From the NCBI RefSeq assembly GCF_003173335.1, contig NZ_QGMZ01000018.1, forward strand, positions 186,001 to 250,000: DNA of 64,000 bases. The letters are read 5' to 3'. This document shows positions 10,762-48,180 of the stretch, piece after piece. The notes below the pieces were generated by a model, which was given only the letters and a program-made list of their open reading frames with translations, was not told the DNA's origin and ran no database searches. The first letter of the stretch is position 1; every line of letters begins with the position of its first letter. A program made the translations under genes and the position numbers. Source of the DNA: Methanospirillum stamsii. Lineage in GTDB: Archaea; Halobacteriota; Methanomicrobia; Methanomicrobiales; Methanospirillaceae.

Positions 10762-10889
10762 GGCTCTTCACAAATATCTATTCATACTTCGATTTCTCGG
10801 AGTATGTGCATACCTCCGGTGAACAGTCACCAATAACAATGACTGATCGGCGGATGAATGCGAACGAACGTTTGTTCGGAGGACATGTA

Positions 10890-13472
10890 ATGAACGCAAA
10901 ATTAGCAGTTGTCATGATGGTGCTCGTTGCACTTGCAATTGTGGCATTCCCGGCATCTGCAGCAATCAACAAGATTCCTGCAGGAGGAGAAGTCTTCCTT
11001 GGAGAAAAGAGTCTTGATGTTTCTGCAGCTGTTGGCGGTTCCAGCCAGATTGCATGGTGGCAGCCAGGTACCAACACAGAGACTGAGCAGCCTGCAGATA
11101 TCCAGCAGGTAACCAATGCACAGTCATTTTACGTTTCACCTGATATCTTCGTCGGGAAGACCGGCAACTGGTATCAGTGGAATGGAAGCATAAAAGGCCA
11201 GCTTGCCTTTAATATCAAGGAACCCTCCCTGAACCTTAAAATCTGGGACGGATCTGTTGATGAAGATGTAACCGGCAAGGCAATTCCGGTAGGTAACTAC
11301 GGAAACTTTGTCGTTGAGACCAACATGCAGAGCATCATCACCCGTCCGGGTTACCAGCCTGCAGATGCACCTTTCAAGATCAAAGTAAAGAGTGCAGATG
11401 GTGGTGTCTATACCACTCTCGTTGGAAACAACGGTAAGGAAATTGCGCTTACCCAGCTTTCTGTTAACCAGCAACTCTGGTACTGGGTAAGTCCGGATAA
11501 CAAGCACACTGAACCAGCAACCAACGATGGTTGGTACACTGCAGCCGAAGACAAATACGGTAACCGTATGTACAAGGCTGGTACCTACACAGTCTGGGCA
11601 GAGTGTAATGCCAACAGCATGAAGGATCAGTATACCGCACCTGATGGTTCTGATTATACCGGTAAGACTATCTCTGCAGTAAAGAGTGTTCAGATCGCCA
11701 CCGACCAGGTGAAGATCGAAGCCAACAAGGACACAGTAGTCCGTGGCAACCCCTTCTCTGTAACCATCACTGGTGTTCCGAATGCTGAGTACTATGTCTG
11801 GGCAAAGGGAACCGGTTCAATGACCGGCCAGCCTGATGACCAGCCCCCGATGATCCTCGATGCCCAGGTTGACGTCAAGCAGGACGCAGCCGCAGGTCCA
11901 TACGAAATCGGTAAGTACCAGTATGAAGGCGGAGCAGGAAAGAGCATTAAGCAAGATGTCCCCGACGATCCCGATTATCACGGAACCAAGTTCTACGCAC
12001 TTGTAAAACTTAATTCCAGTGGTACCAGAACCGTAGAGTGGAAGAGTTCCAAAGACACCAAAGACAAGAAGTACACTATCCGTGTCGAACGCAAGTCCGG
12101 CAGCCAGTACAAGTCTGATGAGGTCGATGTCAAGGTAGAGAAGGGCGATGTAACCATCGTCGCATCTGGTGACCAGAGCTACTACCTTGGTGAGGAAGTC
12201 AAACTCTCCGGTACCAACTCCGAGACTGATCTTACCTATCTCTTCATAACAGGTCCAAACCTCCCAACCAATGGAGGCATGCTGAAATCTCCACGTAAGG
12301 AAGTCAACAACGACCAGGCAGCATCCTTTGACCAGGCTGATGTCCAGGACGATGACAACTACGAATTCAAGTGGCAGACCGCCAACCTTGAGATTGACGC
12401 AGGAACCTATACCGTATACGCTGTAAGCGCTCCACGTGACAAGTCTCACCTGGCTGATGCACAGTATGACACCGTATCCCTCGTAATCAAGAAACCATAC
12501 ATCCAGGCAACTGCATCTGCAAGTGTTGTTGCAAAGGGTGACAAGATGTACCTCCGTGGTACAGCAGAAGGCGACCCATCTGCAGGTATCGCAATCTGGA
12601 TTCTTGGAAAGAACAAAGTTCTCTACGCAACTGAGTCCGTTAACGATGACATGTCATTCGAGCACGAACTCAAGAGTGCAGATACTGCAAATCTTTATGC
12701 AGGACAGTACTTCGTAGTTATCCAGCACCCGATGTACAACAACGAGTTTGATGTCTATCCTGACAACCCACTCGAGCCACAGTACGTCTATGGTTCCTAC
12801 CCTACCCGGAACTCCCAGGTATTCAAGCTTGGCGGTTCAGGTGCCCTTCAGGGAACTGACGCAGCAGAGGCACTTGTGCAGGCAATCAACTCTGCAATGG
12901 TCGACGATACCTACACTAAGCTGCAGTTCCTCGTTGAGGAGCCAAAGGTCACCATCAACCCGATCGGTGAGCAGTCTGTAGGATCCAAATTCGAGATCAG
13001 CGGAACCACCAACCTCATGTATGACGACAACGATCTGCTTGTCGAGGTAACTTCATCCTCATTCAAGCCAACCGACAAGTCACAGAGTGGTGAGTTCAGC
13101 GGTGCAACCGGAACTGTCAAGGTCCAGCAGGGCACTGACGGTCTGAACAAGTGGGCATTCAATGTCGATGCAAGCACCTTCAAGCCGGATGAGTACATTG
13201 TCCGTGTCAACGGTGTTACCACCGATGTAGTCGAGACTGCACTCTTCAACGTTGTTGAAGCAGGAGCAATTCCGACCGTTGCACCCACTGTAGAACAGAC
13301 TCCGGAAGCAACTCCAGAGCCAACTCCAGAGCCGACCACCGTTCCACCAACTCCGGAACCAACTACCGTCCCACCAACCCCTGAGCCGACCCAGCAGTCC
13401 CCAGGATTTGGAGCACTGGTAGCTCTTGCAGGTCTTGGTGCAGTCGCATTCCTTGTAATGCGCCGGAACTAA
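10890..13472 (+). CDS. S-layer/envelope glycoprotein with DUF3821 domain and PGF-CTERM
   Basis: 860-residue exported protein. The signal peptide (about 1-24, ending near FPASA) is followed by IPAGGEVFLGEKSLD and an IAWWQPG segment, the start of the DUF3821 domain typical of Methanomicrobia S-layer proteins. The middle contains beta-rich repeats. The C terminus has a Pro-Thr-Glu linker with PEPT repeats, then SPGFGALVALAGLGAVAFLVMRRN-type tail (SPGF, hydrophobic helix, RR), a PGF-CTERM archaeosortase signal. ATG 10890 was chosen over an upstream in-frame start because CGGAGGAC precedes it and the signal peptide begins there. Codon choice is strongly biased, consistent with very high expression. 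It is the likely main surface-layer protein. Confidence 0.85.
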   Translation: MNAKLAVVMMVLVALAIVAFPASAAINKIPAGGEVFLGEKSLDVSAAVGGSSQIAWWQPGTNTETEQPADIQQVTNAQSFYVSPDIFVGKTGNWYQWNGSIKGQLAFNIKEPSLNLKIWDGSVDEDVTGKAIPVGNYGNFVVETNMQSIITRPGYQPADAPFKIKVKSADGGVYTTLVGNNGKEIALTQLSVNQQLWYWVSPDNKHTEPATNDGWYTAAEDKYGNRMYKAGTYTVWAECNANSMKDQYTAPDGSDYTGKTISAVKSVQIATDQVKIEANKDTVVRGNPFSVTITGVPNAEYYVWAKGTGSMTGQPDDQPPMILDAQVDVKQDAAAGPYEIGKYQYEGGAGKSIKQDVPDDPDYHGTKFYALVKLNSSGTRTVEWKSSKDTKDKKYTIRVERKSGSQYKSDEVDVKVEKGDVTIVASGDQSYYLGEEVKLSGTNSETDLTYLFITGPNLPTNGGMLKSPRKEVNNDQAASFDQADVQDDDNYEFKWQTANLEIDAGTYTVYAVSAPRDKSHLADAQYDTVSLVIKKPYIQATASASVVAKGDKMYLRGTAEGDPSAGIAIWILGKNKVLYATESVNDDMSFEHELKSADTANLYAGQYFVVIQHPMYNNEFDVYPDNPLEPQYVYGSYPTRNSQVFKLGGSGALQGTDAAEALVQAINSAMVDDTYTKLQFLVEEPKVTINPIGEQSVGSKFEISGTTNLMYDDNDLLVEVTSSSFKPTDKSQSGEFSGATGTVKVQQGTDGLNKWAFNVDASTFKPDEYIVRVNGVTTDVVETALFNVVEAGAIPTVAPTVEQTPEATPEPTPEPTTVPPTPEPTTVPPTPEPTQQSPGFGALVALAGLGAVAFLVMRRN

Positions 13473-39313: not shown

Positions 39314-41356
39314 ATGCCAGGTTCAGATTATTTCAGAGAAAAATTTGTCAGATTTGTAATAATCAGTCTTATTTTCATTTTTTTTCAGGGCGTTCCTGTT
39401 TTAGCGGTGAATGGAATGTATGACAATCCCTCCTCCAATGTCGGATATTACATGGGAGAGTATGTTTCAGATACGATTCCTTCGAGCATTGAAGCAGGTT
39501 CAACATATCCGATAACCATTACCTATCGGAATGCCGGTATGGTCTCATGGGAATGGGGCGTTGAAAAATTCGGGCTCCTTTACCAGGGATTACAATCTTC
39601 AATAGAAGTTGAACCTGTTTTTTCTCAAATTCCATCTGATATTAAGGTGGAAACACAGGAGGATTTTTCTTTTCCCTTCACCCTCACCCCGCCGGAAAAA
39701 CCGGGAGAGTATGATCTCAGTTTTTCCATGTCTACCCGGAAGGGAGATAACAAGTATACTCCTTTCTCCAATGGGTTTACCAAAAAGATAACCGTAATAC
39801 CAAAGGAAGGTGTCTCTTCCGGAGATGTCGGATCAATAATCGTTGATTCTAATCCCTCAAAGGCAACCGTTCAGATGGGCGGGGAAGAGAAAGGAATAAC
39901 TCCCCTGACGCTCCCTGATTTAAATCCTGCGAAATATGAAATTACCATTACCCATCCTGATTACCCGACAAAATGGACCCAGGTCCAGGTAGAGGCCGGA
40001 TCGGTCAGCAGAGTTACTGTTGATCTGACAACCGGTGAGATACCTTCCGTAAAAACTGAAAAGCTTCTAAAATTTACCCCCCTTGGATGGGTAATCGATA
40101 ACCTGCCTCTGCTTATTATTACTATTGTTGTATTATTCCTGGGATTTCAAATCCTCATGATGAATACCACCCGTATTCCTGAAAATCACCCGATACGGCG
40201 GTTTACAAGGCCGATTATTCTTGTATCCTCCTCTCCGGATGGAAAAGGAAGATTTCGAAGGGCTGAAAAAGAAAAGGGAAAAGGGGGTACATCGGGTGAC
40301 AGCACAACGAATACCGGGCCTGGAGGATTATCGGAGCAGAAGAAGTCTGTAAAAACTTCCGGTTCAGGCACGGGAAAAGAAAATGCAGTGCGTGACCGGA
40401 CTTTACGACGGGAAGAAGGGGGTGGTATTCAGAAACCCATTGAAACCGATGAGGAAAACCCGGATATCAATGTGGATGATCCAGACCAGGAAGGGAAAGA
40501 AATTGAAGGCATGTGGGGGTTTCCGCATGCTCTTCGTGATCGGTATGAACCACTGGGCATTGCCGGATCTGATTCATATGCCCGTGTCTATAAAGTCCGG
40601 AAAAAAGATACCGGAGCGGTAAGGGCCTTAAAAATTGGTAATATGAAACAGGAAGGAAGCGAAATACTACAGAAGGAGACTTCAGTATGGCGCTCACTTC
40701 GTCATCCAAATATTGTTCATCTGTTTCGGTCTGAATTTCTTGATGATATGTCCTATCTTGAGAATGAGTACCTTGGGGGAATAACGTACAAGGGGAACCA
40801 CCATACCTCATTGTGCGGGCTCCCAAAACCAATCCGGGAGCATTATGCAGTCTCCCTTATAAATGATATTGCGGAGGGCCTCAAATATGCCCATGATATC
40901 GGTGTCCGGCATTACCACCTTCAGACCGGAGATGTTCTCCTGACTCCCAAACTCCGGGCAAAGGTATCCGGATTTGCGAGGGGGAGGAATGAACTTGGGT
41001 TTTCCATCAAGGATTCTGATGTTCGTGAAGCAGATGCTGCTTTTATATCCCCCGAACAAAAAAATTCAGAACGATATGGTAATCCTGGTAGAAGAACTGA
41101 TATTTATCAGCTTGGTGTAATCTTTTATGAACTCCTGACCGGATACCTCCCATATAGTCCGGAAGCGTTCAAGGCATCAGGAAAACCCGGATCTTTTAAG
41201 GATCACTCTGAAGAGTTGGTTCTTCCTTCTGAGATCCGGAAAAATCTGGCAGTCTATGATCCAATCGTCTTAAAAATGTTATCCCTGAAGAAATCTGATC
41301 GATATGACCTGATGGATGAATTATTATCTGACTTGAATGCTTTCAGAAAGGCCTAA
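39314..41356 (+). CDS. Receptor-like membrane pseudokinase 1 (Ig-like, PEGA, TM, kinase fold)
   Basis: 680 residues. Signal helix 13-32; Ig-like domain about 45-162 with RNAGMVSWEWG; PEGA domain about 172-238 (ITPLTLPDLNPAKYEITI); membrane helix about 264-284; low-complexity charged linker 300-400; protein-kinase fold 411-676. Kinase landmarks: beta3 Lys440 (RALKIG) and alphaC Glu455 are kept, the SPE motif is at 579-581 and the alphaF TDIYQLG at 595-601. The catalytic HRD is HYH (533-535), the catalytic-loop Asn is Asp, and DFG is GFA (553-555). It should lack phosphotransfer by the usual mechanism. It might bind ATP or act as a scaffold. GGAAGGGA precedes the ATG. It heads a block of three paralogues. 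Confidence 0.85.
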   Translation: MPGSDYFREKFVRFVIISLIFIFFQGVPVLAVNGMYDNPSSNVGYYMGEYVSDTIPSSIEAGSTYPITITYRNAGMVSWEWGVEKFGLLYQGLQSSIEVEPVFSQIPSDIKVETQEDFSFPFTLTPPEKPGEYDLSFSMSTRKGDNKYTPFSNGFTKKITVIPKEGVSSGDVGSIIVDSNPSKATVQMGGEEKGITPLTLPDLNPAKYEITITHPDYPTKWTQVQVEAGSVSRVTVDLTTGEIPSVKTEKLLKFTPLGWVIDNLPLLIITIVVLFLGFQILMMNTTRIPENHPIRRFTRPIILVSSSPDGKGRFRRAEKEKGKGGTSGDSTTNTGPGGLSEQKKSVKTSGSGTGKENAVRDRTLRREEGGGIQKPIETDEENPDINVDDPDQEGKEIEGMWGFPHALRDRYEPLGIAGSDSYARVYKVRKKDTGAVRALKIGNMKQEGSEILQKETSVWRSLRHPNIVHLFRSEFLDDMSYLENEYLGGITYKGNHHTSLCGLPKPIREHYAVSLINDIAEGLKYAHDIGVRHYHLQTGDVLLTPKLRAKVSGFARGRNELGFSIKDSDVREADAAFISPEQKNSERYGNPGRRTDIYQLGVIFYELLTGYLPYSPEAFKASGKPGSFKDHSEELVLPSEIRKNLAVYDPIVLKMLSLKKSDRYDLMDELLSDLNAFRKA

Positions 41357-41364
41357 TCCACGCA

Positions 41365-41372
41365 TTTATATA
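41365..41372 (+). promoter_or_regulatory. TATA box before pseudokinase 2
   Basis: TTTATATA, eight bases after the pseudokinase 1 stop, predicts transcription from about 41397 and a leader of about 14 bases. The second and third pseudokinases and the TPR gene may therefore have their own promoter. Confidence 0.45.
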
Positions 41373-41410
41373 GGCGGCACACCTACTAGATTGATTATTG
41401 GTAATTCCGG

Positions 41411-43882
41411 ATGTATGCCCGAATTCTTGCGTTATGCCTAATTTGTACTTCCCCTTTTATAGCCGGAGCGTTGGCAGATCTGGATATTGGTATTCCAGGT
41501 TTTGGTCCTTCATATGTGAGTGACACGATTCCTGACCGGGTACTTCCCGGTCATTCATACCCGGTTCTTGTTTCGTTCAGGAATAGCGGACTTGTGAGCT
41601 GGGAAGATGAGATGAGGCGGTTTGGCCTGTTATATGAAGGAGATTATTCAAAAATTACGGCAATCCCTTCATTTGTCGGGTTAACAAAAGGCATGAACAT
41701 CACTCCGGGGAAAGTGGCAACATTCGGTTTTACACTGCTTCCTCTTGGTATTCCCGGGACGTATGATCTGAAATTTTCTGTGGTTATGCGGTCCGGAACA
41801 GGTGATCAGAAAGTTACCGAAACCTATGTGAAAAGGGTAGTAATTGTTCCAACAGATGGAATTTCTTCACCGGTGAATGGATCTGTTTTTGTCGAGAGTC
41901 CGATTCTTGATATGAAAGTATCAATGGGTTCTCAGACAATTGGTAACATTCCTGCAATAATCGCAGATATCAAACCTGGTAGTTATGAAATCCGCGTTTC
42001 CAATCAATCCTTTGATAAAACCTATCCGGCTGATGTTGAACGGGGTACGATGACCCGGCTATTTATCCGGGGTGATGAAAACCCTCCGGTCATTGAGAAA
42101 AAAAAGGCCGGACCTGTTTCAGATGGCACGCTTCTTGGATATATCGAAGCAAATATTCCACTAATCCTGATTATCCTTCTGATAATTTGTGCTTGTTCTG
42201 GTGTGGCAATACATGGGCTCCGAAAAAGAAGGCGACTTGAAGAAAAGCAGGAAAAGAAAGAAGAAAAAGATAATGAATCTGAAGATCGGGATAGCGAGAG
42301 ATTAAAACAGGAAAAAAAACTCCTTGAAAAAGTCCATAGTAAAAAACCACTTATTGAGGGGATTTCATCAACCGGAACCGGTGGATCAGGAGGGATGGAC
42401 TCCGCCCGAATGGAGGATCCAGGTAAATCAATTAAATCCGGAAACGTTGTGCGAAAGGACGGGACTATCTCTCACAAAAAGAAAGCATCTGCACAGAAAA
42501 GCAAGGATAAAAGTTCCTCATTACCTGATATAGATATTCAGGTCCGTGACATTGAGGCAAAACCAGGGTCTGCTGTTGCAAGTATCGGTATATCCAATCA
42601 TTCAGAGAACGGAATACGTGTTGAGGATATGGATATCGGGGCTGGTGGTTTTGGGATACTCCCCGTCGAATTATCTGAACCAACAGACGATGCACCTGAG
42701 GTCGTTCTCCCTCTCCGAATACTCATAAGCGGTTCTGAATTCTTAAAGAACATTTCAATACCCTATAATCGTGGTGTTGCCCTTCTTGCCCGTGGAGTTG
42801 TAGAAAAAGCATATGAATATTTCAGGACCTTGTTGCAGTCTGACCCGGATAATGTTGAAGCGAATATCAATCAGGCTCAAATCCTTTTAAAATGGGGATT
42901 GGAGGAAGAAGCCGCTTTATTGCTGGAAGAAATCCTGAAATCAGATCCCTCAAATGAAGAAATTCTTGAAGCAATAGAGAGGATACGGGAAGCGAATAAT
43001 CGAAAGAAAAAGAAGGCTGAACCTGAAATAGTGAAAAAAATTCCCGGGTATCCGGATGAATTACTTGACCGATATACTCCTATCCGGGTGCTGGGAGATG
43101 ATCCTTTTGCTACGGTTATTCTTGTAAGAAGGAATGATACCGGAGAATTACGGGCTTTAAAAATTCCACGAACAACAGAAACAATTAGTTCATCATTGTA
43201 TACGGAAATTTCACTGCTTTATCAACTAAAGCATCCGTATGTACTCCGGATGTTCAGGGCAGAATTTTCACCGATCGTCATGCTTGAACTGGAGTATGTT
43301 GCAGGAGGGTTTTATGACGGAAAACAGAGGATGAATCTGTTTGATCTCCCGGTGCCTCTCCCTGAGGATATCTGGTTTCCCCTTTTAGAGAAAATTTCAG
43401 AGGGTCTTTTATATCTACACAAACAGGGTGTTCGCCACTATCATTTATCTCCTAAGCACATTCTCCTTGATGAACCGATGGTGCCTAAAATATCTGGTCT
43501 CATCCGGGAATCGCTCAGGGGTGCCGGAGGAAGTGGGAAAGAAGAATTTTTTGCTCGTGCTCCTGAACAAATAGATCCTGAATTTTTTGGAAAACCCGGG
43601 AAAAGAACCGATATTTTTTTACTTGGTGCCATATGGTTCTGGTTTGTCAGTGGGAAAATTATCAATCCTGAAGGGGTTGATGTCGATTCCGGAGATGATA
43701 AACTTCGTCTGTCATCAATCGATATGCATTATGCCCGGTATGATTATTGTTTTCAGAAACTTGTTGCACGGTATAAACGCGATCGCTATTCTTCTGTTGA
43801 AATCTTTTTACGCGATATCCGAGAAATGAATCAGTTGCCGCATGAATCTGATGATTTGTTGATTTCTGGAGACGAGTCATGA
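41411..43882 (+). CDS. Receptor-like membrane pseudokinase 2 (with TPR)
   Basis: 823 residues. Signal about 1-22; Ig-like domain about 30-147 with FRNSGLVSWED; PEGA-like domain about 156-220; membrane helix about 248-267; long Lys/Glu-rich coiled linker 270-370; a beta-rich domain about 372-450; TPR-like helices about 451-528; kinase fold 555-808. Beta3 Lys584 and alphaC Glu599 are present, the Gly loop is weakened (LGDDPFATV), HRD is HYH (676-678), the loop Asn is His, DFG is GLI (696-698), and APE is intact at 717-719. ATGA overlap with pseudokinase 3. The function is unknown; the layout implies an envelope-facing sensor or adaptor. Confidence 0.85.
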   Translation: MYARILALCLICTSPFIAGALADLDIGIPGFGPSYVSDTIPDRVLPGHSYPVLVSFRNSGLVSWEDEMRRFGLLYEGDYSKITAIPSFVGLTKGMNITPGKVATFGFTLLPLGIPGTYDLKFSVVMRSGTGDQKVTETYVKRVVIVPTDGISSPVNGSVFVESPILDMKVSMGSQTIGNIPAIIADIKPGSYEIRVSNQSFDKTYPADVERGTMTRLFIRGDENPPVIEKKKAGPVSDGTLLGYIEANIPLILIILLIICACSGVAIHGLRKRRRLEEKQEKKEEKDNESEDRDSERLKQEKKLLEKVHSKKPLIEGISSTGTGGSGGMDSARMEDPGKSIKSGNVVRKDGTISHKKKASAQKSKDKSSSLPDIDIQVRDIEAKPGSAVASIGISNHSENGIRVEDMDIGAGGFGILPVELSEPTDDAPEVVLPLRILISGSEFLKNISIPYNRGVALLARGVVEKAYEYFRTLLQSDPDNVEANINQAQILLKWGLEEEAALLLEEILKSDPSNEEILEAIERIREANNRKKKKAEPEIVKKIPGYPDELLDRYTPIRVLGDDPFATVILVRRNDTGELRALKIPRTTETISSSLYTEISLLYQLKHPYVLRMFRAEFSPIVMLELEYVAGGFYDGKQRMNLFDLPVPLPEDIWFPLLEKISEGLLYLHKQGVRHYHLSPKHILLDEPMVPKISGLIRESLRGAGGSGKEEFFARAPEQIDPEFFGKPGKRTDIFLLGAIWFWFVSGKIINPEGVDVDSGDDKLRLSSIDMHYARYDYCFQKLVARYKRDRYSSVEIFLRDIREMNQLPHESDDLLISGDES

Positions 43883-46416
43883 CCGGAAGTAATGAATGGT
43901 CTTATTTATCTCCGATTCTCTTTTTTCTGCTCATTTTTTCAGTCTTAATCTCCGGAGTATGTTCTGATGTTACCGGAGGAATACCTGGTATTTCCTACTA
44001 TGGAGGTGAGTTCAGTACAGATACTATTCCTCGTACCCTGATCACAGGGCAGGAAATTCAGGTTATGATTGAGTTTCGAAACTCTGGCATGACTGCATGG
44101 GAATATGATGTAGAAAAGTTTGGTGTTCAGTATTCAGGAGATAATAGTCTTATCAATGTTGATCCTCTCATCAGTCCTCTTCAGAAAGGTTCACGTGTCC
44201 ATAGCGGACAGAGTTACCAATTTCCGTTCTTGATAACTGCATATAATCCTGGCCATGTGGATCTTCAGTTTGCTGTTGTAAAAATCCTTCCTTCAGGAAA
44301 AACAACTCCTGTCTCCGATTTTACTGTAATCCCAGTGGAGATCAGTGAAGGCGTTGTACAAACAGGTGATTCTGGCACAATACAGGTATCCGGAGGTGAT
44401 TCACATTTTCCTGTTGCGTTGGATGGGACTCATGTAGGGGTTACCCCACTCACAATCCCTGGTATTTCTGTTGGTTATCATACCATCACGGTTGATGGAA
44501 ATGAAGGTGTTATGGAGCAAAAAGTTCAGGTCCTTCCGAATTCGATAATCGAAGTTACCTATAGTCCTGAAAGATCATTCATAACCATAGAAACAAAAAA
44601 GTCTTTTTTACTTGACAACCCCGACCCCGTTCTGACCCTCATTCTCTCGAATTTTTTTATTATCCTGGGACTTGTCCTGACTCTTACCGCTATAGGTGTA
44701 TGTGCTGTTGTAGTTATGACCGGGAGGCTTAAGCGGGTGAAATATGTAGTTTCGCAAATAATACCTCCTTCTATCTCAAAAAAAGGGAAAAGGTATGTTT
44801 CGATTGTAAAGAAAAGAAACATGAGTAAAGAAGAGGTTAAGTTTGATCCAATAGCCGGTTTGTTTCATCAGGGAGAGAAAAAAATTCTCAAAGTCAAGGT
44901 TTTCAATAAAGGATTAAAGGAAATAATCATAGATAATCTTTCTATTCCTCCAGGGGAATTCAGGATCCTAATCCGGGAGTTAATGGATGATGATCCTGGA
45001 GATAATGCCACTGAAATTGATTTCACATTCACCGGTGATGATGGAAAAGAGAAAAACCGGGTTGTTCATTTCCAATATCGCATCCTCTCCAAAGTGCCTG
45101 ATTTATCCTGGATATTTGATAAATTTTACCAAAAAAATGACAAAATAATTGCAGTTATAAAAATAAACAATAAAAACCTCTTTGATCTGACTGCAGATAC
45201 CACTACGATTAAAGCAGGAGAAGAGGAGCCTGTCGAACTGGAAATGGAGGATCCTGATAACGATGCATCATCAATTTTCAGAAAAATATCTCTCTCTTTT
45301 AAAGAGAGGTCATCTCTTATTATTCCTGTCAGGATTCCATATAATAAGGGAATTTATCTCTACTTTTCTCGTCAGTTCACAGAGTCACTGGAATGGTTTA
45401 AACAGAGAATAGAGGATGGTGATTCTGATCCGGTACTTCAGAGGTACAAAAATCTGGTAGAGAAAAAATTATCCGACACTAATAACGGAGGCACTTTAAA
45501 ATCTTCTGTTTCTGATAATGATTCGAAAACTGCGACCATTATAAAAAATCAATCTCCTTCTATTGATGTCACTGGTAGTAATAAGTCTGCTATCCCCACT
45601 TTTTCAGAATTCCCTGATTCATTACTTTCCCTGTATCAACCAGTATCACTCGTTAGTACTGACCGGATGGGAACAATTTATCACGCTATAAAATCTTCAG
45701 ATTCAGAATCTGTAGCTCTTCGTATCCTTAATCCTGGCAATGTCCCCATTTCAAGTGTAGAGTTGCAAATTCAGGCATGGAGGTCACTAAAGCATCAGAA
45801 TATTCTGCAAATAAAGTATTGGGAACGTGATCCGGTCTATTTTTTGGAATTTGATCTGCCTTCCGGAGCGATTCAGAAAAAAAGACGGGTGTATACTCTT
45901 GCAGATCTAAAGGTGCCGATTCCTCCGTCTGCTGCCTTACGGATTGTCCGGGGTCTTGCCCACGGTATTGCCTATACTCATCGTCAGGGAGTTAGGCATT
46001 ATTTACTAGAGCCTTCTGTAATCCTCCTTGATAAAGGATTGAATCCGAAAATTTCCGGGTTTGATACTTCTGTTTTGATTCAGTCCCGTATCCCTGATAA
46101 GTGCTGGATTGCAGCTCCGGAACAGTCTGATCCTGACAATTATGGGAATCCTGGGAAAAAAACAGATATTTATCAGGTAGGGGCCATTTTTTATTACCTT
46201 ATTACTGGTCTTATGCCTTCAGTTACAAATCCTCTTGCAACATTACCATCGGATCATAAAGCAGGGTATTCAAAATTTGATACCCTCATCTCTAATTGCA
46301 TGTCTCCTGATAAAAATCAGAGATATGGAGAGATTGATGACCTGATGCAGGAACTTGATCTTTTATATGCGCATTTTTCTCAAAAACAAGAAAAGGTTTC
46401 TTACCGTGATGCATAA
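43879..46416 (+). CDS. Receptor-like membrane pseudokinase 3 (most degenerate)
   Basis: 845 residues. Signal about 11-29; Ig-like domain about 40-152 with FRNSGMTAWEYD; PEGA domain about 164-228 (VTPLTIPGI); membrane helix about 252-280; a cytoplasmic region with one or two beta-sandwich-like domains (about 325-485); a short TPR-like hairpin (487-530); Ser/Thr-rich linker; kinase fold 585-828. The beta3 Lys is Arg615 (VALRIL), the alphaC Glu is Gln630, HRD is HYL (707-709), DFG is GFD (727-729), and APE is kept (746-748). So ATP binding as well as catalysis is probably lost. Its 3' end overlaps the TPR gene by eight bases. Confidence 0.85.
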   Translation: MTGSNEWSYLSPILFFLLIFSVLISGVCSDVTGGIPGISYYGGEFSTDTIPRTLITGQEIQVMIEFRNSGMTAWEYDVEKFGVQYSGDNSLINVDPLISPLQKGSRVHSGQSYQFPFLITAYNPGHVDLQFAVVKILPSGKTTPVSDFTVIPVEISEGVVQTGDSGTIQVSGGDSHFPVALDGTHVGVTPLTIPGISVGYHTITVDGNEGVMEQKVQVLPNSIIEVTYSPERSFITIETKKSFLLDNPDPVLTLILSNFFIILGLVLTLTAIGVCAVVVMTGRLKRVKYVVSQIIPPSISKKGKRYVSIVKKRNMSKEEVKFDPIAGLFHQGEKKILKVKVFNKGLKEIIIDNLSIPPGEFRILIRELMDDDPGDNATEIDFTFTGDDGKEKNRVVHFQYRILSKVPDLSWIFDKFYQKNDKIIAVIKINNKNLFDLTADTTTIKAGEEEPVELEMEDPDNDASSIFRKISLSFKERSSLIIPVRIPYNKGIYLYFSRQFTESLEWFKQRIEDGDSDPVLQRYKNLVEKKLSDTNNGGTLKSSVSDNDSKTATIIKNQSPSIDVTGSNKSAIPTFSEFPDSLLSLYQPVSLVSTDRMGTIYHAIKSSDSESVALRILNPGNVPISSVELQIQAWRSLKHQNILQIKYWERDPVYFLEFDLPSGAIQKKRRVYTLADLKVPIPPSAALRIVRGLAHGIAYTHRQGVRHYLLEPSVILLDKGLNPKISGFDTSVLIQSRIPDKCWIAAPEQSDPDNYGNPGKKTDIYQVGAIFYYLITGLMPSVTNPLATLPSDHKAGYSKFDTLISNCMSPDKNQRYGEIDDLMQELDLLYAHFSQKQEKVSYRDA

Positions 46417-47596: not shown

Positions 47597-48085
47597 CTAA
47601 GAACATCCACAATCACTGATGGCTGAACCTGGTTTCGGATGTGTCACCTGAATATTTGTCTTTGCTTTCATTGTGCTGATTACTCCATTACTGCTCTCTT
47701 GATCATCCAGGATGAGCCCTATTTCAAGTGAATAAACACCAGGTTGAAGGGAAGGGATGGTAAATGGTATCGTATAGGTTCTTTCTTCCCCTTTTGCCGG
47801 AACCGGCCATTCAGCATTTGTGGTAATAAGAGTCCTCGGGCCGAGTGATCCGGTAAACTTTAATGATTCTGCCTGTCCGGGTTTGATATCCCGGTTAACT
47901 ACAGTTATTATCGGGGAGATATTCATGCCCGGACTCACGATCGTACTATCAGATGGAAGGTTGATACTTGCAATATAAATCTCCGAATTATCTCCCGACA
48001 CCGGAGAAATAATGGCGATGAATGTGATGCAGAGTGTCAGAAAAAATACTGGATTAAAATATCCTAGCGAACGAGAATGTGTCAT
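47597..48085 (-). CDS. Small secreted CARDB-like protein
   Basis: 162 residues from ATG 48085: signal helix about 8-30 (PVFFLTLCITFIAII), then one CARDB/Ig-like beta-sandwich (NLPSDSTIVSPGMNISPIITVVN, then SLQPGVYSLEIGLIL), ending in DCGCS. The TATA element GGATATAA at 48111-48118 lies 26-33 bases upstream of this ATG, so a nearly leaderless message starting here fits better than the upstream ATG at 48145. Its beta-sandwich type resembles the extracytoplasmic domains of the pseudokinases, and it is convergent with the TPR gene (12-base gap). Confidence 0.6.
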   Translation of the reverse strand: MTHSRSLGYFNPVFFLTLCITFIAIISPVSGDNSEIYIASINLPSDSTIVSPGMNISPIITVVNRDIKPGQAESLKFTGSLGPRTLITTNAEWPVPAKGEERTYTIPFTIPSLQPGVYSLEIGLILDDQESSNGVISTMKAKTNIQVTHPKPGSAISDCGCS

Positions 48086-48110
48086 ATACTCAGATAGTAA
48101 TTGTTTCGGT

Positions 48111-48118
48111 TTATATCC
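48111..48118 (-). promoter_or_regulatory. TATA box of the small secreted protein gene
   Basis: GGATATAA on the minus strand, about 26-33 bases before ATG 48085, implying a leaderless or near-leaderless transcript. Confidence 0.45.
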
Positions 48119-48180
48119 TGTCATTGAAATAAAATTCCTGCACATGCACTGACTTTTTATTCCTCTGATAGAATGATACT

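Follow-up and report, generated by a model that had tools for sequence, protein, structure and literature searches.

A conserved family of tandem receptor pseudokinases in the archaeal genus Methanospirillum

Our analysis has revealed that three tandem genes of Methanospirillum stamsii, named here P1, P2 and P3, belong to a real and conserved family of archaeal receptor pseudokinases. The genes lie in the window, the whole stretch of 64,000 nucleotides that was analysed, and their products are probably catalytically dead single-pass receptors that act as a transmembrane switch or scaffold, as judged from their sequences. Pseudokinases have been much studied in eukaryotes. In bacteria they were classified only recently (PMC12599244), and no archaeal pseudokinase family was found in a literature search that had most subscription journals outside its reach. 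The family is a clean test case for a receptor kinase turning into a non-catalytic regulator, because catalysis was lost once at a datable point, a sister genus carries the pre-duplication form, active relatives are close and the host has been cultured.

The preliminary description had assigned three paralogues to positions 39314-46416, and this span agrees exactly with three reading frames of the ORF list. On the basis of the ORF list, Pfam, hydropathy and motif reading, each was identified as a receptor-like pseudokinase gene of the plus strand. P1 (39314-41356, 680 aa) is composed of a signal peptide (residues 14-32), an Ig-like domain (approximately 58-145), a PEGA domain (173-239), a transmembrane helix (264-282), a linker and the pseudokinase domain (approximately 404-676). 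P2 (41411-43882, 823 aa) has a signal peptide, an Ig-like domain, a weak PEGA domain, a transmembrane helix (249-267), a cytoplasmic TPR region (458-522) and the pseudokinase domain (approximately 541-805), and P3 (43879-46416, 845 aa) a signal peptide, an Ig-like domain, a weak PEGA domain, a transmembrane helix (261-279), a cytoplasmic domain and the pseudokinase domain (approximately 573-827). The three genes are co-directional and the start of P3 overlaps the stop of P2. The Pfam Pkinase profile was matched at 76.1, 49.2 and 48.6 bits by P1, P2 and P3, respectively (cut-off 31.7), and the PEGA profile at 45.2 bits by P1 and at 18.4 and 18.1 bits, both under the cut-off of 20.8, by P2 and P3. 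A weak NBR1/FW-type Ig match was given by the profile search for P1 only. Hydropathy has shown a signal peptide and a single additional hydrophobic helix in every product, and the type-I receptor topology described earlier, in which a single membrane helix joins the Ig-like and PEGA domains outside to the kinase fold in the cytoplasm, was upheld by Pfam and hydropathy. In comparison to P1, the sequence identity is 32% for P2 and 29% for P3.

AlphaFold2 models cover the kinase domains of P1 and P3, with mean pLDDT of 87.2 (31 sequences) and 87.5 (23 sequences), respectively. In the Foldseek search against the PDB, the top match was mycobacterial PknB (6i2p; E 4e-16 for P1 and 7e-14 for P3), and a PDB sequence search agreed, with PknB as the best match at 1e-17. 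Homology to the Hanks-type (eukaryotic-like) kinase fold superfamily extends across both lobes, as found with Pfam, the PDB, AlphaFold2 and Foldseek. The kinase fold, which had been proposed from motifs, was thus confirmed for P1 and P3 by folding and by the structural match to PknB; the failure to predict such a fold, named in advance as evidence against the proposal, did not occur in either model. The PknB/Stk1 PASTA kinases, the best structural and PDB sequence match, are likewise single-pass receptors with a cytoplasmic kinase fold, but they are active and their PASTA ectodomain is C-terminal to the membrane helix, in reversed domain order. In P1-P3 the Ig-like and PEGA domains stand in place of a PASTA ectodomain, and NF033483 gave 90 bits against a cut-off of 450. 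Membership of the PASTA kinase, PglW or MAD6 families was rejected, since the NCBIfam matches are far under their cut-offs and reflect the shared kinase fold only.

The catalytic motifs of the window are altered as first described, the HRD region reading HYHLQTGD in P1, HYHLSPKH in P2 and HYLLEPSV in P3, and the DFG region GFA, GLI and GFD, respectively. Motif reading also bears out the retention of S/APE, TDIYQ/TDIF and the alphaF Asp in all three copies. GVRHY had been placed ahead of the catalytic loop, which was wrong, as it is the beginning of that loop. The position of the catalytic-loop Asn is occupied by Asp in P1, His in P2 and Val in P3. In the window, P1 and P2 have retained the beta3 Lys and alphaC Glu, which in P3 are changed to Arg and Gln, respectively. 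In the alignment of 30 clade domains, the catalytic Asp (D166) is gone from every domain (His in P1 and P2, Leu in P3), as is the DFG Asp, with Gly instead. In 29 of the 30 domains, Asp has taken the place of the second Gly in the Gly-rich loop, and all 48 relatives that have this position show Gly there. Loss of the catalytic-loop Asn was seen in 27/30 domains, 3 of the 11 P1 orthologues (G006, G007 and G017) having kept it; hence the earlier statement that the Asn is lost in every copy holds for the three genes of the window and fails for the family. The APE Glu, the alphaF Asp and Arg280, all structural residues, are invariant in the 30 domains. By its residues the clade fits the definition of a pseudokinase, a kinase fold without at least one of the VAIK Lys, HRD Asp and DFG Asp, and the set of HxD Asp, catalytic-loop Asn and DFG Asp expected of an active Ser/Thr protein kinase is absent from it. 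HxDxKPxN and D[FW]G are intact in the relatives inspected across the order and the phylum; in the alignment tally, active kinases seemed to have "D or G" in these columns, which is due to an alignment shift, the raw sequences reading D[FW]G. Chance or sequencing error is ruled out, because identical changes occur in the orthologues from all 12 Methanospirillum genomes.

The family is confined to a narrow group in the genomes searched. A search of 232 genomes from the order gave 31 top matches at 324-389 bits, with the next one at 238 bits, and these 31 belong to 12 Methanospirillum genomes and to G017, from another genus of the same family. At class level, the search gave the set already found for the order. 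P2 was found in 12 of 12 Methanospirillum genomes (in G007 with partial coverage only), P1 in 11 of them, the twelfth being an incomplete assembly, and all three genes in the single-contig genome G003. P3 is missing from G010 despite an intact locus in which P1 and P2 remain, and is thus dispensable. The scan of assembled genome contigs gave Methanospirillum-type loci only, and in 393 genomes sampled from the phylum the only additions were kinases of the active type. Absence of the HYH pattern from relatives had been suggested as a sign of recent decay; this did not occur, the pattern being found across the 12 genomes of the genus. In the sister-genus genome G017, a single copy is located at the same secY-adk-DUF106-cmk locus.

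The tree was built from the 30 clade domains and 45 relatives with the catalytic motif columns removed. It has placed the 30 pseudokinases on one branch with support 100/100, apart from the 45 relatives, and the G017 copy outside P2 and P3 with support 97/86. In a first, quick tree this pseudokinase branch had support 80; in the careful tree the sampling is wider and the most extreme long-branch row, L004, is under the score threshold, and the long branches L003 and L136 remain. Since the G017 copy is outside P2 and P3 and is single at the same locus, the loss of catalysis is placed before the duplications that formed the tandem array. The tree and alignment establish one predicted pre-duplication loss of catalysis, in which the HxD Asp changed to His or Leu, the DFG Asp to Gly and the second Gly of the Gly loop to Asp, as well as descent of the clade from receptor-type Ser/Thr kinases, predicted to be active, of the same archaeal phylum. 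An inherited, shared loss of archaeal origin, as first proposed, is hence borne out. The nearest relatives of the kinase domain are active Ser/Thr receptor kinases of the Methanomicrobiales and of other lineages of the phylum, such as L062, L056 and L130. These share with P1-P3 the combination of an extracytoplasmic sensor (PEGA, NosD beta-helix, Kelch or beta-propeller) and a kinase domain, whereas they have other sensors and have kept the Gly loop, HxDxKPxN and D[FW]G. At one of them, L130 (G391:C45) from another lineage of the phylum, three receptor kinases of the active type stand in tandem, which shows that such arrays also exist outside Methanospirillum.

In the receptor pseudokinase reading that we consider probable, the Ig-like and PEGA ectodomain would sense or bind a ligand or an envelope structure outside the membrane, between the membrane and the S-layer, and the pseudokinase would provide a cytoplasmic conformational switch and a docking surface. 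Presumably encoded in one operon, P1, P2 and P3 would probably form one complex, which would not be obligatory in three parts because G010 has P1 and P2 without P3. Cytoplasmic partners may be recruited via the pseudokinase fold and the linker of P2 and P3. With their Lys-Glu pair, P1 and P2 may bind nucleotide, metal-free, as a structural ligand, and P3 probably binds none. A more specific version is a lineage-specific archaeal receptor system made up entirely of tandem pseudokinases, with P1, P2 and P3 as a heteromeric, catalysis-free transmembrane switch through which the cytoplasm would be informed of the condition of the S-layer and sheath envelope; it is tentative and rather doubtful at present.

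Known pseudokinases offer models for such a role. CASK and ErbB3-type proteins, like P1 and P2, have divergent catalytic or metal-binding motifs and have kept the beta3 Lys and the kinase fold; they are eukaryotic, and the likeness is a functional analogy with homology limited to the kinase fold. Of the two, ErbB3 is a receptor that works as part of heteromers. Among prokaryotes, the closest precedent found for the working of such a domain is mycobacterial MviN (ActPs3), a membrane protein with a catalytically dead cytoplasmic domain of Ser/Thr kinase descent, which PknB phosphorylates and FhaA reads (PMC12599244). Unlike P1-P3, it is bacterial, has VALT and no HRD-like loop, and is fused to a membrane protein needed for peptidoglycan synthesis (PMC12599244). 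The bacterial pseudokinase families named there are ActPs1-3, DLHK, GLW, CP1 and DYD, and in a comparison by printed motifs HYH...GFA equals none of the motif strings shown. By analogy with MviN, PknB and FhaA, the output of the archaeal receptors could run via trans-phosphorylation by the active kinases of the genome, with FHA proteins as readers. The same genome encodes separate active kinases, FHA proteins and PP2C phosphatases, which makes phosphorylation in trans possible; the pseudokinase gene cluster itself showed no gene for any of these three kinds of protein. Two FHA genes are near active kinases in this genome, one of them for an HTH-FHA protein. This HTH-FHA fusion (L114, 931-1695, plus strand) is immediately upstream of the active kinase L001 and is likely a phosphorylation-reading transcription regulator.

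It is unlikely that P1-P3 are instead unorthodox enzymes, in which the kinase fold moves phosphate, AMP or another group via relocated catalytic residues. Unusual pseudokinases such as SelO proved to be enzymes, which counts against a catalytically dead reading, and none of the 22 P1 and P2 domains of the clade alignment has lost the beta3 Lys or the alphaC Glu. Moreover, position 171 is Asp or Asn in P1 and P3 reads GFD where DFG is expected. However, position 171 is His or Tyr in P2, neither of the metal-binding positions has an acidic residue conserved across the three paralogues, and the Asp in the Gly loop of 29/30 domains is expected to repel phosphate. In P3 orthologues, the Lys is absent from 5 of 8 and the Lys and alphaC Glu are mostly lost.

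Quite unlikely, too, are structural envelope anchors, whose ectodomain would organise the envelope and whose pseudokinase would be a cytoplasmic plug or cytoskeletal anchor with no signalling. The envelope of Methanospirillum comprises a sheath and an S-layer built of Ig-like domains, and contains two periplasm-like spaces (PMC11641113); an S-layer-type gene is present within the same window, approximately 26 kb upstream of the array. This gene (10806-13472, plus strand) codes for a DUF3821 and PGF-CTERM protein of 888 aa, a domain composition found also in Mhun_2263, the S-layer protein of M. hungatei. The preliminary description had suggested a possible link to the S-layer space, which would follow from the topology and from the proximity of this gene, a proximity that carries no functional weight. 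Descent of the clade from receptor-type kinases, whose sensors vary within these archaea, favours sensing over pure anchoring.

In pairwise comparisons, the kinase domain gave dN/dS of 0.03-0.06 for P1, 0.08-0.27 for P2 and 0.10-0.14 for P3, from few pairs with mostly saturated synonymous sites. Reading frames are intact throughout the genus, and in P1 and P3 the kinase domain is more tightly conserved than the ectodomain. These comparisons establish that the predicted kinase fold has been maintained by purifying selection after the loss of catalysis, in agreement with the earlier view of selection and not decay, as dN/dS is far below 1 and the motif replacements are shared. Decaying receptor kinases, relaxed from selection after function was lost, are very improbable, for although P3 evolves faster, has lost more motifs, is not present in G010 and shows divergence of its ectodomain in G004, the identical replacements are retained in 12 genomes and the sister genus, along with the intact frames, low dN/dS and less conserved ectodomain. 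Recent decay was rejected for P1 and P2 from dN/dS and residue conservation, and decay is plausible at most for P3 of the G004/G005 subclade.

Downstream, a gene coupled to P3 (46397-47584, plus strand) encodes a predicted membrane-anchored, extracytoplasmic TPR protein with an N-terminal signal or transmembrane segment, a probable operon partner; a C-terminal hydrophobic segment ahead of LRKKIF was recognised by visual inspection and is below the hydropathy threshold. The gene adjoins P3 in most of the genus, is missing together with P3 in G010, and is missing in G004, where P3 has diverged, which gives a weak hint that P3 and the TPR protein function together. The convergent gene that follows (47597-48145, minus strand) encodes a small secreted protein with weak Wzt_C/S-layer-type matches. 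It ends in CGCS, a C-terminal C-x-C motif (CGCS, CNCR or CNCA in orthologues), and is a syntenic neighbour in most of the genus. A sigma-70-type promoter scan gave no excess, that promoter type being not applicable to archaea. Elsewhere in the genome, a second degenerate kinase domain (L004, G000:C2:168320-169039) with HGNL in the catalytic loop was found in a 1930-aa frame, outside the clade of the tandem array. The same genome also encodes a secreted beta-helix protein (L121, 1498-2937, minus strand), and the C-terminal domain of this protein is similar to the ectodomain of the pseudokinases (26% identity, E 3e-6).
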